Source: Pseudobacteriovorax antillogorgiicola
GTDB taxonomy: Bacteria; Bdellovibrionota_B; Oligoflexia; Oligoflexales; RGVZ01
Direction: 5' to 3'
DNA length: 64,000 bases
Assembly: GCA_945898195.1 (NCBI GenBank)
Contig: CAMDHM010000008.1
Coordinates: forward strand, 1-64,000
Under the pieces are notes generated by a model. That model did not search any database. It was given only the letters and a program-made list of their open reading frames with translations, and was not told where the DNA came from. Made by a program: the position numbers and the translations under genes. Below, piece after piece: positions 56,784 through 63,797 of the stretch. The stretch's first letter is position 1, and each line of letters opens with the position of its first letter.

Positions 56784-57149
56784 ATGGGTCAGCCTGTCAG
56801 AAAGCTTCAAGTCGATGTACCTCCACTGGTACTAGAACAACGGTCCTATGCGCGGAATTTGCGCGTGAATGGTTCGCTCCCCGGTAAGTTGGTTGATTTT
56901 GAGCGACACGAGGCGATCCGGGCATCGGCGACCGACGTAAGCCGCAATGGCGTGGGAATCATGGTCGATAAGATTTTGCAGCCAGGTCAAATGTTGACCA
57001 TGGTGATGTCCGGGAAAAACCTGAACTTTAAAGTCATTCACACGTATCCGCATCTAACCCGGGTGGGGCACTTTATCTGTGGTCTGGAGCTGGTGGATCA
57101 TGTGGACAATTTAGAATCAATTTTTGCCGCTAACGGTTGCTTGATGTGA
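56784..57149 (+). CDS. PilZ-domain protein
   Basis: A 121-residue single PilZ domain, which commonly binds cyclic di-GMP. The N-terminal arginine motif is RSYARNLR (usually R-x-x-x-R), and DVSRNGVGIMV corresponds to [DN]-x-[SA]-x-x-G. Both parts of the binding signature are present, so ligand binding is plausible. Targets are unknown. GGGGAG precedes the ATG. Its 3' end overlaps the convergent methyltransferase gene by 20 bases. Confidence 0.8.
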   Translation: MGQPVRKLQVDVPPLVLEQRSYARNLRVNGSLPGKLVDFERHEAIRASATDVSRNGVGIMVDKILQPGQMLTMVMSGKNLNFKVIHTYPHLTRVGHFICGLELVDHVDNLESIFAANGCLM

Positions 57150-58116
57150 GTTCTTGAACTTCATCGGACACCAGGGACTCCAGAAGAATGGCACAACCGC
57201 CAAGATGATCTTTCAATTTTGCGTAAGCCTCTGCGGCATCTTTTGAAAACCTTCCTCTTTTTAACGCCAGGATCAGGCGATTTTTCGGCGAGTGTCGTGA
57301 CTCAACAAACTCGGTTGCGGTGGTTTCATAGCCGCTGGCGCGGAGCAGCAGCACGCGCATCATGTCCGTGATTTCAGCAGCGATCGTTCGGCGAAGTTCT
57401 GGGGCTTGAAAGGCCGGCGCCATGGCATGGCTGCGGCCTTCTTGCGACTGGGACAACTCGCGCCATTTACTGGCCAATTCGGCTTGGCAGCACGGTGAGG
57501 CTGCCAGCACTTCTGCCCCTGAGGCAAGTCCCAGTCCCAACGCTTCATCGGTCGCCGTGTCGCAGGCGTGAAGGCCGACCACCATCTGCGGCCGTTTAAA
57601 TTCCGCCAGCACGGGCCGCCGCGCGAGCAATGCGTCCCACTGGAAGTCCTTGGTCGAGGCGACCTCAAAATGCATGTTGCCTTCCAGCCCTAGAATGCTG
57701 GCCATGGAGCGTGATTTCTCAATGAGGGCTTTGTTGGTGTCGATCCCAGCGATTAAAAAATTTCCCGAAAAATCGCCCTGCAATTTATTTTTCAGGTACC
57801 AGGCAAGCAGGAAAGTGAGGTAGGAACTTCCGCATCCAGCGTCAAGAATCGCCAGGTTTTTGTGGCGCCCTCGTAAATCGAGTAATGGTGCCTTGAGCAG
57901 TTCCAGCATATGGTTAATTTGGACATACTTGCGAACGGCATCGGCTGGCATGGATGAATCGTTACCAAGCAGGCCGATGGCTCGCATAAACGGCGCATCT
58001 GCAGGTGGCACGATTTCGTATTTTCGTCCCGACGTGATTTTAGCAATTCGTTCTGCGGTCCAGTGAGATTCTGCAGAGCTCTGATGGGGTTTTTGCGTGA
58101 GGCGTGAATTTGTCAT
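57130..58116 (-). CDS. SAM-dependent methyltransferase (Methyltransf_32-like)
   Basis: A 328-residue protein with a Rossmann core. LAILDAGCGSSYLTFLLAW holds the SAM-binding G-x-G loop, and MVVGLHACDTATDEALGLG and ASPCCQAEL match the Methyltransf_32/METTL25-like family. The substrate is unknown; related proteins act on rRNA, tRNA or ribosomal proteins. The ATG at 58116 is preferred to 58146. It is divergent from the Rsm22-like gene and the two starts overlap by about 20 bases. Confidence 0.75.
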   Translation of the reverse strand: MTNSRLTQKPHQSSAESHWTAERIAKITSGRKYEIVPPADAPFMRAIGLLGNDSSMPADAVRKYVQINHMLELLKAPLLDLRGRHKNLAILDAGCGSSYLTFLLAWYLKNKLQGDFSGNFLIAGIDTNKALIEKSRSMASILGLEGNMHFEVASTKDFQWDALLARRPVLAEFKRPQMVVGLHACDTATDEALGLGLASGAEVLAASPCCQAELASKWRELSQSQEGRSHAMAPAFQAPELRRTIAAEITDMMRVLLLRASGYETTATEFVESRHSPKNRLILALKRGRFSKDAAEAYAKLKDHLGGCAILLESLVSDEVQELTSSNR

Positions 58117-59194
58117 TAATTCTGATTTGCTCCGGGCTTTTGCCAATGTTGCACGAACGGTCTTTGGGTATCAGGCTGAGGCAATTGCCGCAAGAGATGC
58201 TGCACTTAACCCGGTAAAGCTGGCTCAGGCCGTCCAACGAATTTCCGATTTTTACATCTCAAAGCCAACCGGGAAAACGCCATACGAGTTGCCGGGCGCA
58301 CCTGCTGCGTACCTTCTTTATTATACCCTGCTGAATCATGTTCGTGCCCTTGCCGTATTTCGCGAAGCCAAAAATCTCGGGTTTTTTGAGGGGATCCATC
58401 GGGTCGTCGACTGGGGGAGCGGTATGGGGGCCGCTTGGCTGGCCTTGCAGGATACTTTGCCCGAGGTCCTGGGTACCAGCCTGGCATTTGACCGTTCGAC
58501 GCAGGCGTTGGATGTTCAGCGAGCCCTTCGCCGCGAATTTGCAGCCGAATCTGTGACGGATAGGCATCTCCTGACGAGCGATGAGAAAAAATTTCGTGAG
58601 TTTATGGGCGGTGACAATCCGGACAAAACCTTGGCCGTATTCTCCTACTCACTGACGGAACTCGATGGGCTGCCAAGGTGGGTTCAGGACTGCGAGGCTC
58701 TGGCCATCATCGAGCCTGGCACAAATCAGGATGGACGACGCTTGTTGGCAATTCGAGAGGATTTAATCCGCCAGGGTTATAAAGTCTGGGCCCCTTGCAC
58801 CCATCAAGGGTCGTGCCCCCTTTTGATCCATAGCAAAACCGATTGGTGCCATGACCGGATCCAGTGGCGCCAGCCCGACTTTTACAGCGCGCTTGAACAA
58901 CATCTTCCAATGAAGCACCGGACCCTGGTTTTTTCTTACCTTTTGGCGCGAAAAAAACTGTCTCCCCCAGCGAAGTTGAATGCGGCCGCGCGCCTGACGG
59001 GAGATCAACAAAACCTGAAGGGGCAGACCCGTCAGATGGTCTGTCGGGGCACGGAGCGGGAATTTTTATCGTGGCAGCACCGCCACGGGGAGCCGCCTGA
59101 ATTTGCCCGCGGTGAGCTCGTGAAGATTGATTCGACGGCACAAAAAAAAGGGGCAGACATTAGAGTGATCGATAGTCAGGTCGCTCGAGTATAA
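58097..59194 (+). CDS. Rsm22/METTL17-like ribosomal assembly protein
   Basis: A 365-residue protein of the Rsm22 family (small-subunit ribosome assembly, methyltransferase fold). Diagnostic parts are VVDWGSGMGAAWLAL, SYSLTELDGLP, IIEPGTNQDGRR and WAPCTHQGSCPL, with WCHDRIQW. Cysteines 234, 240, 251 and probably 316 match the four that hold a 4Fe-4S cluster in METTL17 and yeast Rsm22. The SAM-type loop is reduced (DWGSGMG), so catalysis is uncertain. It starts at a GTG and overlaps the divergent methyltransferase start and the convergent DUF2079 gene end. Confidence 0.85.
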   Translation: MRREFVINSDLLRAFANVARTVFGYQAEAIAARDAALNPVKLAQAVQRISDFYISKPTGKTPYELPGAPAAYLLYYTLLNHVRALAVFREAKNLGFFEGIHRVVDWGSGMGAAWLALQDTLPEVLGTSLAFDRSTQALDVQRALRREFAAESVTDRHLLTSDEKKFREFMGGDNPDKTLAVFSYSLTELDGLPRWVQDCEALAIIEPGTNQDGRRLLAIREDLIRQGYKVWAPCTHQGSCPLLIHSKTDWCHDRIQWRQPDFYSALEQHLPMKHRTLVFSYLLARKKLSPPAKLNAAARLTGDQQNLKGQTRQMVCRGTEREFLSWQHRHGEPPEFARGELVKIDSTAQKKGADIRVIDSQVARV

Positions 59195-60611
59195 GAACAT
59201 TTTCGTCATCCATCACGGCGCGCACACCAGAAATGGCCCGCCACTTGATGACGGTGTTTTCAACAAAAGCGGTGTCAGCAGGCCACATTGATCCAAGGTT
59301 ATTTTTTTCAACGAGCAGCCATTGAAATGATTCCGGGCCATCTGCCGCAGCGCCCAGATGATGGACAGCATTTCGTTCAACGAGATGGGGCAAGATGTTG
59401 CCCTGGACGAGGGCCTTTCCCTCTGGTCGCGCCAGGAGTGAGGCCACTGCCTGATCCAGGCTTGCGATGCGGGAGGGCTGTGACGGGCAATGGGGCGCCA
59501 TGCTACTGCCCTGCCAATACCGTAAGGCGGGACGAAGGCTTTGATGAGCCGTCAGGGCTAATAATATTCCGGCAATTGCCCACGTAAAATTCTGGCTACG
59601 TCGAGGGTACCGGTAAGACGGAACAAGCTGAATGGTCAAAAATGCAGCCACTGTGGCCAAGGGCACACTGCGATGGGAAAACCACCAGCCGCCGACTGCC
59701 CGTACGGCGAGCAACGCAAGAAAAATCGCGATTACAGGCGCGTTCTTTGTCAGTGATGCGCGCGTCAAAAATTTTCTGTCAGCCTTGATACCGGTCAACC
59801 ATGCGAGGGCTAAGATGGGGATCAGTGGCAAGGTCCAGGCGATCGACCAGAGGGCAATCTCGCGGAGCGAATTCCACTGCAAAAGGTAGGTGAGCCCCGA
59901 TCCCTGTTTCGCCGAGTCCGCGTATTGCCCCGAATGACCAAGGAGCGCGGGACGAAGGACAAAAGCAAGAAACGCCCACAACAACGACACTGCAAGGAAT
60001 TCTGCGCCGGGCCTTCGGCGCCCCGAGGCGATCATGCTGAGGCCGACTGCAATTCCGACAACCGGATATTCTTCCTTGCAAAGCAGGCAGAAAAAAAATG
60101 TCAAAAGTGCAGCGCGCCACTTTTCACGCCAGAGAAACCAGCAGGTCCAAGACAGTGGCAAAATGGCCCACGTGCCAGGATGGGCCGGAAAGGCAAAGGC
60201 CCCCAAACTAGCCCGATTGAACAAGATGAATGCAGCCATAAACGTTGCGGTGGCAAAGGTGATCGCGCGCCGTTGTGCCATCATCAAAAAAGTTCCGGCC
60301 GTGGCGAGGGCAAGCAACATTTCAAAACGAATCAAGAGTGTGGCGGGATGGGCGAGGGACTTGAAAGGGACTAGAAAAAATAAAATCGGATCGAGATGAT
60401 CGTTGAAGAGATTTATTTCACGGACGCTCAGCCATGGATTTGGATTTTGCAGGGACAGTTGAAAAAGAGCCTGACCATATATCCCCAGGTCGTAATTGTT
60501 GAGGCAGTATGACCTGTAGGCTGCCTCGGCTGGGACCCAGACCAGTGCAATAAAGAGTGCGCCCAAGGTCACGGCTGAAATGATGAGCGAGGTGATGAGG
60601 CGCTTTGGCAT
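59160..60611 (-). CDS. DUF2079 polytopic membrane protein
   Basis: About 483 residues with ten or more hydrophobic segments. The family signature is near residues 35-80: YDLGIYGQALFQLSLQNPNP, then WLSVREINLFNDHLDPILFF. LCKEEYPVVG and a soluble C-terminal region (about 360-483) with VMDDENVLILER follow. DUF2079 proteins look like GT-C glycosyltransferases, but no activity has been assigned that I know of. The ATG at 60611 fits the family better than one at 60743. Its 3' end overlaps the Rsm22-like gene by 35 bases. Confidence 0.82.
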   Translation of the reverse strand: MPKRLITSLIISAVTLGALFIALVWVPAEAAYRSYCLNNYDLGIYGQALFQLSLQNPNPWLSVREINLFNDHLDPILFFLVPFKSLAHPATLLIRFEMLLALATAGTFLMMAQRRAITFATATFMAAFILFNRASLGAFAFPAHPGTWAILPLSWTCWFLWREKWRAALLTFFFCLLCKEEYPVVGIAVGLSMIASGRRRPGAEFLAVSLLWAFLAFVLRPALLGHSGQYADSAKQGSGLTYLLQWNSLREIALWSIAWTLPLIPILALAWLTGIKADRKFLTRASLTKNAPVIAIFLALLAVRAVGGWWFSHRSVPLATVAAFLTIQLVPSYRYPRRSQNFTWAIAGILLALTAHQSLRPALRYWQGSSMAPHCPSQPSRIASLDQAVASLLARPEGKALVQGNILPHLVERNAVHHLGAAADGPESFQWLLVEKNNLGSMWPADTAFVENTVIKWRAISGVRAVMDDENVLILERPDYRSL

Positions 60612-60813
60612 GTAGGCATTTTGGCATGAGTTTGTTTTATTGGCGAGATAACAAAAGGATTTGTTTTGCATTTTGTTAACGAGGTCTTGCATGGGAGAAT
60701 TTCGAGGACTTTGTGGGGAAAAATTGAGCAAGGCATCAAGCACGGCAATTGCAATCCGACATCTCTTTAGAAGGCGGGCAATTATTGCCTGCTCAACCCT
60801 TCAGGGAGGTCCC

Positions 60814-61146
60814 ATGGTTAAAGATACAGCCGCTGCGGCACACGCTCACGAAGCAAAAGCCGAGGAAAAAGGTGCAAAACCAGCCGAAGGCGCAGCGAAG
60901 GAAAAAAAGAAGCCCGCAAAGAAACACGACGTCGGCATTGAAGACAAAGCAAAAAAACCAGAATGGACGATGGCGCGGCTTTCCAAGATGGCCCGTCGCT
61001 TTGATTCCGAAGACGCATGGCGGCATGGTGCTCCGTCTAGCTACAAGGCTGCGCATTCAAAGGGCGTTGTTGCCCAGTGCATGAGTCATGTGCCGAGTCA
61101 TGGAAAAAAAGGTGTTGCTGGTCGCGGTGCTCGTCACTCGGCGTAG
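60814..61146 (+). CDS. Small Lys/Ala-rich basic protein
   Basis: A 110-residue protein with a strong GGGAGG ribosome-binding site before the ATG. The first half is low-complexity and charged (EAKAEEKGAKPAEGAAKEKK and onward), like histone H1-type tails. The second half, ARLSKMARRFDSEDAWRHGA then SYKAAH, looks folded and ends with a basic Gly-rich tail. DNA or RNA binding is possible from composition alone. Its 3' end overlaps the convergent DUF455-ATP-grasp gene by 13 bases. Confidence 0.5.
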   Translation: MVKDTAAAAHAHEAKAEEKGAKPAEGAAKEKKKPAKKHDVGIEDKAKKPEWTMARLSKMARRFDSEDAWRHGAPSSYKAAHSKGVVAQCMSHVPSHGKKGVAGRGARHSA

Positions 61147-63257
61147 AGCAGGTTCCAAGCAAAGGTTGCGGCATCCTGGCCAGCGAAGAGCGCGGTCAGG
61201 ATGCCGTTTGCCATTTCGGGATCTGTGGTTGGAAGAAAGCCACTTTTCACTTTTACGGCACCAGCACCAGTGTACGAGACGGTTTCAAGGGGAAACCGGC
61301 GTGTCATATCGGTGGCAAATGCGGCGAAGCTGTTGCAGCCGCTTCGTTGCAGGAGCTTGTTGTGAATGTGCAGCCAGATCGCCGTATGCCCCCGCGCCAG
61401 ACCGTGTTCCAAAGCAGCCGCAATCCGTCCCATGGAATAGCGCGGATTGATCTCAACGACGGGGCGCAGACTTAAAGGCCGATGCAGCAGAGGTTGAGGT
61501 GTCGGTTCTCGAAAAACCATGGCGTCGATCCCAGCCGGTCCGGAAAAACCCTCTGCGTGCATTTTTTCGCCGCATTGCAGGGCGGCTTCGCGCAGTTGGT
61601 CCATCCATCCCGGATAAAGCCTGCTGAAAAAATTCTGATCAAAGGGTTTGCCATCGGCATCAGGAAAACTGAATGGTCGGCCGAGGGCATGCCCGCAATA
61701 TTTTCCGGTCCGGTCAATCAAAGGACGCGTGATGCCGAGGACGCGGACGCGACTGGTCGATTCAACTTTAAACAGGACACTGAGGTCGCAAATTTTATCA
61801 AGCCAAGGTTCCGCGATGCAGGGGAATTTTATTTTTTCTGCGATTTGAATTCCGTCGTGACTGGGATTTTCAAGGGCGATGCGGCGCAGGCCAAGTCCCG
61901 AAGCACCAAGCACTGGTTTCACTGCAAGGTGTGTGTATCCGGCGCGTTGCACGTCATCGGCGACGGCCTCAACCTCTGCCATGTTTTCACAGCGACGGGC
62001 AGAATACGCATCGGGCGCAATGCGCGCCGCAAAATCTTTGCTGAAAAACGAGGTGAATCCCGTGGGCCATTGGGCCGGCATTGCGCGAAGGATGTCTGCC
62101 AGAGGTTTGGCCCATGCCATCGCAGCAGGGGTTTCTCCCCATGGTTGGAGGACGCCCAATTTACGGCTGCCCAGTGATTTTAAAATGGCAGCCGCATCGG
62201 GAGCGTCTCCGGCTTCGATAAATTCGGGAAGAGAAAAGCCGGCAGACTTCATCTTTGAAAGGAAGGGTAGCGATGGTTTGCGACTCACCATAACCACGTC
62301 GTCAGTCGCCGCAAGAAACATCAAAAGCGGCGCGAGGTCACGTTCAATGAAAGCCGCGCGGCCCTGGAAAAAAGGCGATTTCGCGCCTGATGCAAGTTCA
62401 CGCTCACAACCTGGATTGAACATCCACAAATCCGCGGGTCGTCCCTTCGAAGAGCTGAATACTTTAAGTTGAGAGATGAAATCCGCATCCAGGCCAGCCC
62501 GTGCGCGGCCCGCCTCGTCAAAGACAGGGCCTTTGGCACGGCTCGGGGTCAGTGGAAAACGCAGATGCTCGCGGTAGGCATCCCAAAGTGTTTTTTCGGC
62601 TTCAAATCTTTTCAGCCAGATCACACCATGTTCAACATGGCGGACCTCGTCGTCATGAATCTGGCGCAGGATGTCAGCCGTTTTCTCGTCGCCCAAGTCT
62701 CTGAAGGATTTTTCATAATGTTGGGCAAAATCCAGATTCGCCTGCTCAAATGTCAGTGACATTGCCGCAGAATATTCAAGTGGCGTGGCGATGCCTTTCA
62801 TCGTGCGCCAGAAGAAGCTGTTGACGGGCATCGTGCCGAACGTCACACCAAGTTCTGCCATTCGTTCGATATAGAGTTTTAGGTGCGCCTGCTCTTCCAA
62901 CATTGTGCGCGCAATGCCTGCTCGAAAAGATTTCGGTGCATCGGGAAAGCGCAGCAACGCAAGGGCCATGACCTCAAGGGCCAAGAGTTCGTGGTTGGCA
63001 AAGTAGTGCAGGACCATGCCCCGGCCGCGCGGGTCGGATAATTTTCCGGCACCAGGAAACTGTGCTGCGTGGGGCAAGCGGCGATCAAAGGCCAGTTCCG
63101 GGGGGCGGCCGGGCAACGTCGGCGGCGTCTCTAGGGCCGGGCCAGGCAATTCGTCGGTAAATGGACTGATGCCGCCAGGAGCCCAAGTTTTATCTGCGAT
63201 GGTTGAGCCGAACAGGACCTGTTCGGCAAACGCTCTGATTTCCACAATACCACCCAT
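61134..63257 (-). CDS. Fusion of ferritin-like DUF455 domain and ATP-grasp domain
   Basis: A 707-residue protein. Residues about 65-240 form a DUF455 ferritin-like four-helix domain with di-metal ligands: HELLALE (Glu90), MLEEQAHLKLY (Glu122, His125), FEQANLDF (Glu171) and DDEVRHVEHG (Glu204, His207). Residues about 270-700 form an ATP-grasp domain. LAVKPVLGASGLGLRRI (near 444-460) is the flexible glycine loop, WLDKICDLSVLF the central strand, and VVEINPRYSMGR (about 600-611) the Mg-binding Glu and Asn. The frame is continuous. DUF455 usually occurs alone; the fusion suggests an oxidation step linked to ligation of a carboxylate. Product unknown. Confidence 0.75.
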   Translation of the reverse strand: MGGIVEIRAFAEQVLFGSTIADKTWAPGGISPFTDELPGPALETPPTLPGRPPELAFDRRLPHAAQFPGAGKLSDPRGRGMVLHYFANHELLALEVMALALLRFPDAPKSFRAGIARTMLEEQAHLKLYIERMAELGVTFGTMPVNSFFWRTMKGIATPLEYSAAMSLTFEQANLDFAQHYEKSFRDLGDEKTADILRQIHDDEVRHVEHGVIWLKRFEAEKTLWDAYREHLRFPLTPSRAKGPVFDEAGRARAGLDADFISQLKVFSSSKGRPADLWMFNPGCERELASGAKSPFFQGRAAFIERDLAPLLMFLAATDDVVMVSRKPSLPFLSKMKSAGFSLPEFIEAGDAPDAAAILKSLGSRKLGVLQPWGETPAAMAWAKPLADILRAMPAQWPTGFTSFFSKDFAARIAPDAYSARRCENMAEVEAVADDVQRAGYTHLAVKPVLGASGLGLRRIALENPSHDGIQIAEKIKFPCIAEPWLDKICDLSVLFKVESTSRVRVLGITRPLIDRTGKYCGHALGRPFSFPDADGKPFDQNFFSRLYPGWMDQLREAALQCGEKMHAEGFSGPAGIDAMVFREPTPQPLLHRPLSLRPVVEINPRYSMGRIAAALEHGLARGHTAIWLHIHNKLLQRSGCNSFAAFATDMTRRFPLETVSYTGAGAVKVKSGFLPTTDPEMANGILTALFAGQDAATFAWNLLYAE

Positions 63258-63335: not shown

Positions 63336-63797
63336 ATGACACCAAGGCTGATCCAGCTATTCAAAGAATACGAAAGTGGCCACCGCCATCCGACCAATCA
63401 GCTGACCCATAAGGTCGCGATTCCAGTCATACTTTTTCATATTATCGCCATGCTGGACTGGATCCACCTTGGGCCTGTTTTTGCCATGGCAACGGCAAAC
63501 GGCGACGGGCTGCGCCTTTCTGGTGGCACTTTGGCGATCCTAATCGCGGGGTCGTGGTACTTCCGCAACGACGTGCGCCTTGGCGCGATTCTGACAGCCT
63601 ATATGTTTGCTTGCCTCGTGGTGGGCTGGCACATGCCAGCGGGCGTGGTGATCGCCCTTGCGGTGGTCGGATGGTTGATCCAGTTCAGTGGACATTACGT
63701 CTGGGAAAAGCACCATCCATCATTCTTCACAAATCTCGTGCAGGCTTTGGTTGGTCCAGCCTACTTCACGGCACGGCTGTTCAAGTTTTACCCGTAG
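63336..63797 (+). CDS. Mpo1-like (DUF962) membrane protein
   Basis: A 153-residue protein with about four transmembrane helices. The DUF962 signature is complete: LFKEYESGHRHPTNQLTHKV (Y-x-x-x-H-x-x-P-x-N-x-x-x-H) near the start, and FSGHYVWEKHHPSFFTNL (G-H-x-x-x-E-x-x-x-P-[AS]) near the end. Yeast Mpo1 is an iron-dependent dioxygenase acting on 2-hydroxy fatty acids, using these His residues. A role in fatty acid alpha-oxidation or 2-hydroxy lipid turnover is inferred. It is divergent from the DUF455-ATP-grasp gene. Confidence 0.88.
   Translation: MTPRLIQLFKEYESGHRHPTNQLTHKVAIPVILFHIIAMLDWIHLGPVFAMATANGDGLRLSGGTLAILIAGSWYFRNDVRLGAILTAYMFACLVVGWHMPAGVVIALAVVGWLIQFSGHYVWEKHHPSFFTNLVQALVGPAYFTARLFKFYP

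Follow-up and report, generated by a model that had tools for sequence, protein, structure and literature searches.

A single gene in the window, by which we mean the whole stretch of 64,000 nucleotides analysed, encodes a DUF455 ferritin-like domain fused to an ATP-grasp ligase domain, and the genomic coupling of these two partners is strong across phyla, where they occur as one gene, as neighbouring genes, or together in one genome. They very probably perform two steps of one reaction. The protein combines this two-domain architecture with intact catalytic residues in both halves and with a predicted fold for each, which are consistent with an O2-using diiron domain working together with an amide-forming ligase.

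A single-frame fusion gene retained in most genomes of its phylum

The gene (positions 61134..63257, minus strand) consists of one ATG–TGA frame of 707 codons, encoding 707 aa, with GC contents of 0.558 and 0.557 in its two halves. At the composition of the gene, the probability that 707 codons remain open by chance is ~1e-14. The same fused frame, 91% identical, is present in an independent public MAG labelled by NCBI as Pseudobacteriovorax (class Oligoflexia, phylum Bdellovibrionota), and the fusion gene was found, nearly always in a single frame, in 40 of the 58 genomes of the window's phylum (a sample, like all genome collections compared here). A phylum-wide search for the DUF455 family recovered those same 40 fusion genomes, and the DUF455 copies of the phylum lie in frames of ~600–850 aa, with the exception of pieces at contig ends and one stand-alone copy (see below); neither half was matched in the 18 genomes without the fusion. 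With the same frame in the independent MAG and in 40/58 genomes of this phylum, the misassembled junction that would have refuted the original prediction can be ruled out, and so can a chance frame. In G040, a 61-codon frame located 3' of a 91%-identical orthologue (L031:8657-8842; G040:C5:90415-90540) is 82% identical to residues 670-707 and represents a partial duplicate of the 3' end of the fusion gene.

A ferritin-like domain with a complete set of di-metal ligands

Residues 43-261 (62475..63131, minus strand) belong to DUF455 (Pfam PF04305, E 2.5e-49; 168.5 bits against a gathering cut-off of 34.3) and include a four-helix bundle (helices 76-103, 109-135, 159-187, and 191-216). Judged from residue conservation and fold, the metal site (residues 90-207; 62637..62990, minus strand) is made of E90, E122-x-x-H125, E171, and E204-x-x-H207, six ligands that are 100% conserved in 73 of 73 domains from three phyla and classical DUF455 and that the fusion shares, in the same order, with the PF04305 family. 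Because these residues are conserved across the compared domains, the list of ligands and motifs read originally from the sequence, with its two E-x-x-H motifs plus two Glu, proved correct. The domains linked to an ATP-grasp partner (hereafter pair-type) nevertheless differ from the classical DUF455 sampled: they strictly keep H89 and E95, where classical DUF455 has I and D, and in the DUF455 tree they form a separate clade, split from the classical domains by a long branch (2.32, support 100/95). The sole stand-alone DUF455 in the window's phylum (G046:C440, L084:2453-3445) is highly divergent, with a branch of 4.95, and groups with the classical domains. Classical alphaproteobacterial DUF455 genes directly follow a peroxiredoxin gene in Sphingomonas, Sinorhizobium, and Qipengyuania (L095:4417-5693, L096:4294-5606, and L098:4393-5663).

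An AlphaFold2 model of the DUF455 domain alone reached a pLDDT of 94.5, and its nearest Foldseek matches were aldehyde-deformylating oxygenases and desaturases (probability 0.99-1.00 but E>0.03), with ferritin and bacterioferritin-like folds also among the matches. Given the weakness of these matches, the choice between an oxygenase and another diiron function is not settled. The domain has the four-helix di-metal fold in common with aldehyde-deformylating oxygenase, COQ7, and MiaE, but its profile and fold matches to them are weak, and it scores below the cut-offs of all three families (for COQ7, 20.5 vs 23.5 in Pfam and 16.5 vs 180 in NCBIfam), so that it is not a member of any of them.

A C-terminal half with a predicted ATP-grasp ligase fold

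The remainder of the protein, from residue 275 to the C-terminus (61134..62435, minus strand), is predicted by Foldseek and hhalign to contain a pre-ATP-grasp and an ATP-grasp domain (fold ~275–700). The domain search proposed with the original prediction identified DUF455, but Pfam detected no ATP-grasp family in the C-terminal half of the window protein. Among 29 relatives, Pfam detected PreAtp-grasp in seven (best 4.8e-6, just below cut-off), DUF3182 in five (best 2.9e-9, over cut-off), and ATP-grasp_3 in two. The AlphaFold2 model of the fusion, built on the family alignment, had a pLDDT of 88.5 and a pTM of 0.86, the latter suggesting that the relative placement of the two domains is also confidently predicted. 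A Foldseek search with the C-terminal half retrieved amino-acid and peptide ligases with E values of about 1e-11 to 1e-9 (398 matches <0.001); the nearest solved folds, at E 1.6e-11 to 3e-10, were BesA (8yi6), a Streptomyces ATP-grasp peptide ligase (8ynd), PGM1 (3wvq/3wvr), and SAOUHSC_02373 (7r8p). The catalytic elements K447, G451-A-S-G454, E483, D578, and E602-x-N604-x-R606 (61440..61919, minus strand) correspond to the ATP lysine, the glycine loop, and the Mg-binding D/E...E-x-N. Nearly all of the 69 domains compared retain K447, G454, E483, D578, E602, N604, and R606; K/R, E/Q, and E/D replacements occur rarely, in split forms. The G-x-S-G glycine loop is likewise kept. The predicted model and its Foldseek matches (E 1e-11), the profile comparison, and the motifs support an ATP-grasp ligase fold for this half, and the full ATP-grasp core with glycine loop and E-x-N site that had been proposed for it therefore stands.

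The ligase half shares its fold, catalytic residues, and pre-ATP-grasp domain with PGM1, BesA, and LdmS (SAOUHSC_02373), but only 12-15% identity over the fold alignment, and it carries a signature of its own, F-N-P-x-x-E ... P-W-G ... E-I-N-x-R-x-(T/S)-M-G. It did not reach an orthologue-level sequence score with LdmS, PGM1, or BesA, and phmmer found no match to the whole fusion protein in the PDB. The NCBIfam models LdmS (L-Asp–L-Met ligase) and MptN matched weakly (0.002–0.003; LdmS at 0.002 in 2 of 29), and single family members also weakly matched RimK-family models.

A Bacteroidota ATP-grasp annotated as 'hypothetical protein' (WP_122246558.1, L094:8397-9605) is homologous across the whole C-terminal half (23% identity, hhalign 99.9%) and, unlike the fusion, has no adjoining DUF455 partner. 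The ligase can therefore act without DUF455, and this single-gene relative points to a ligase family older or wider than the pair. A Parabacteroides match that seemed to span both domains (L094:6480-9605) is not a fusion: a DUF349 gene precedes the stand-alone ATP-grasp relative, and the N-terminal part of the match extends into it by chance. The locus lies on a 388-kb 'plasmid' with folE and tpiA that may be a piece of chromosome.

The two partners are coupled in other phyla

In ~230 genomes sampled across the domain, the pair was also seen as separate genes in two other phyla. The first, represented by G193, is probably Planctomycetota; G193 has 57 copies of DUF1559/PF07596, a planctomycete signature. 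Both partners were present in 51 of the 199 genomes of this phylum, three had only the pair-type DUF455, three only the ATP-grasp, and 142 neither (Fisher p 6e-40, a value inflated by relatedness), and the ATP-grasp was found in none of the eight genomes of the phylum that have only weak, classical DUF455. In the 51 co-occurring genomes, the partners are fused in 10, adjacent on one strand in 29, and apart or on different contigs in 12, the last group including all nine found in family f149. With 40/58 genomes fused in the window's phylum, these figures provide the count of fused against separate genes proposed originally. The other phylum, a small one represented by G185, has adjacent pairs in all four positive genomes. 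In at least 11 adjacent pairs, two of them from this third phylum, the start of the ATP-grasp gene and the stop of the DUF455 gene overlap by four bases, which points to translational coupling. The metal ligands and the catalytic residues persist whether the partners are fused or split. The earlier view that DUF455 proteins are generally stand-alone thus holds for classical DUF455 but not for the pair-type domains, which are nearly always fused to, adjacent to, or co-present with the ligase. The extra N-terminal domains apparent in fused ORFs of 1100-1500 aa elsewhere are due to high-GC run-through 5' of the true start (M-E-L-R-x-F-A...). None of the viral contigs searched carries the fusion.

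The fused forms bear a common mark at the junction, K271-G-R-P (62436..62447, minus strand). K271 and R273 are invariant in 29 fusions of the window's phylum and (K/R/T)-G-R occupies the junction in 9 of 10 fusions of the planctomycete-like phylum; the motif was not found at the start of the split ligases compared. In the DUF455 tree, the fused forms of both phyla constitute one clade (98/95), with two fusions of the planctomycete-like phylum (G463 and G307) nested among those of the window's phylum. This is most simply read as a single fusion event, with later transfer between phyla or mis-binning of some contigs. The ATP-grasp tree also recovers the fused group (99/89); it places the Bacteroidota protein inside this group, in a position that is unsure because of its long branch. 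The fusion is real and old.

Variable gene neighbourhoods

An Mpo1-like gene (63336–63797; PF06127, E 1.4e-14) lies beside the fusion on the opposite strand, and a lipid or peptide substrate shared by the two had been suggested. Among the genomes with neighbourhoods compared, this gene adjoins the fusion in G000 and G041 only, two close relatives. As it is absent beside the fusion of G040, which belongs to the same genus, the shared substrate is unsupported, and we rejected a shared function with this neighbour as a conserved link. A search for a conserved third operon partner in both phyla found none. Neighbours vary between families and include methyltransferases, a HemN-like protein, a glycosyltransferase, an aldehyde dehydrogenase, anthranilate synthase, and others, all different.

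An Rsm22-like methyltransferase gene (plus strand) and a Methyltransf_32 gene (minus strand), divergent and with a short overlap at their 5' ends (window 57130-59194), remain close to the fusion in six family f1 genomes, and a DUF2079 membrane protein (window 59160-60743, E 8e-14) is kept in G040 too. A class I/II aminotransferase gene adjoins the ATP-grasp gene on the same strand at L155:9373-11933 (G148) and L168:9764-12070 (G406), and in L167 and L175 related aminotransferases are a few kb away at most.

A putative two-step enzyme and its alternatives

We consider it somewhat probable that the fusion is a bifunctional enzyme whose two halves, a diiron domain that uses O2 and a ligase that forms amides, share one small amino-acid-like substrate. 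The N-terminal four-helix domain would bind two iron ions (or Fe/Mn) and use O2 to oxidise a small amino-acid-type substrate or product by hydroxylation, N-oxidation, desaturation, or cleavage, in either order with the ATP-grasp domain, which would activate a carboxylate as an acyl phosphate with ATP-Mg and join it to an amine to form an amide (dipeptide-like) bond. The two steps would be held together by the fusion or, where the genes are adjacent, by translational coupling. The Rosetta-stone pattern, the intact catalytic residues, and the predicted ligase and diiron-oxygenase folds all agree with this proposal, and they support well the domain reading and the idea of a bifunctional enzyme put forward in the original prediction. 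The distribution of haem-copper oxidase (COX1) suggests a fit with O2 use in the planctomycete-like phylum, where it is present in 50/51 pair-carrying vs 110/148 other genomes (p 4e-5), an association in which ancestry and genome completeness are confounders; within the window's phylum, the difference is not significant (38/39 with the fusion vs 14/17 without, p 0.08). In BesC/BesA, a diiron O2 enzyme works with an ATP-grasp amino-acid ligase. Likewise, at least 25 gene clusters place HDO diiron oxidases next to ATP-grasp amino-acid ligases; in the mangotoxin cluster, for example, MboA with MboC/MboD offers the same combination of a diiron O2 enzyme and an ATP-grasp amino-acid ligase (PMC13185094). 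The oxidases of these HDO/ATP-grasp pairs have a haem-oxygenase-like fold, which the fusion with its ferritin-like DUF455 does not share, and they belong to multi-gene clusters, whereas here the partners are fused or translationally coupled outside any cluster. The lack of a conserved biosynthetic partner near the pair, unlike in those clusters, counts against the two-step enzyme, as does the Bacteroidota ligase with no DUF455 gene beside it.

The lack of a dedicated cluster or transporter adjoining the fusion is more in keeping with a housekeeping modification than with a natural product, and the ATP-grasp might then modify a macromolecule in the manner of RimK (a protein tail, a ribosomal protein, or a peptidoglycan-like chain), with DUF455 oxidising the added residue. 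The wide distribution in the phylum (40/58), mostly by vertical descent as it seems, and the weak RimK-family and MptN matches of single members agree with such a role, which we regard as unlikely given that the best folds are ligases of free amino acids and peptides, even if PGM1 joins an amino acid to a peptide. It is rather improbable that the DUF455 half is no oxygenase but a ferroxidase, a peroxide scavenger, or a metal/redox sensor that protects or regulates the ligase. Such functions might be expected from the ferritin and bacterioferritin-like folds among its matches and from the peroxiredoxin beside classical alphaproteobacterial DUF455; however, pair-type DUF455 is a separate clade with strictly kept H89 and E95, its nearest folds are deformylating oxygenases and desaturases, and its 270 residues, with conserved elements outside the helix bundle, look more like a substrate-specific enzyme. 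Finally, an accidental fusion of partners with no shared function would accommodate their separation in family f149 of the Planctomycetota-like phylum and the solitary Bacteroidota ligase, but it appears highly improbable in view of the support for the fused clade and the co-occurrence of the partners even when unlinked, which reject random co-occurrence, and an assembly artefact is refuted by the 40/58 genomes and the independent MAG.

Returning to the two-step enzyme, a more specific version of it, which we hold tentatively, is that the ferritin-like diiron oxygenase and the PGM1/BesA-like ligase make up a self-contained two-step pathway, present as a fusion in Oligoflexia-type bacteria and in some planctomycetes. 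Its product would be a new oxidised amide, either a metabolite or a modification, and one kept phylum-wide outside a specialised cluster. The literature searched, mostly papers available without subscription, did not describe the fusion and mentioned DUF455 only in passing. As the pair is widespread in poorly studied phyla and lacks an obvious gene cluster, it may escape ordinary genome mining. Through the coupled subfamily, part of DUF455, an uncharacterised family, is connected with amide-ligation chemistry in a compact enzyme. Purified protein allows a direct search for the substrate of this enzyme, which would be a ferritin-fold counterpart of the recently recognised HDO/ATP-grasp pathways.
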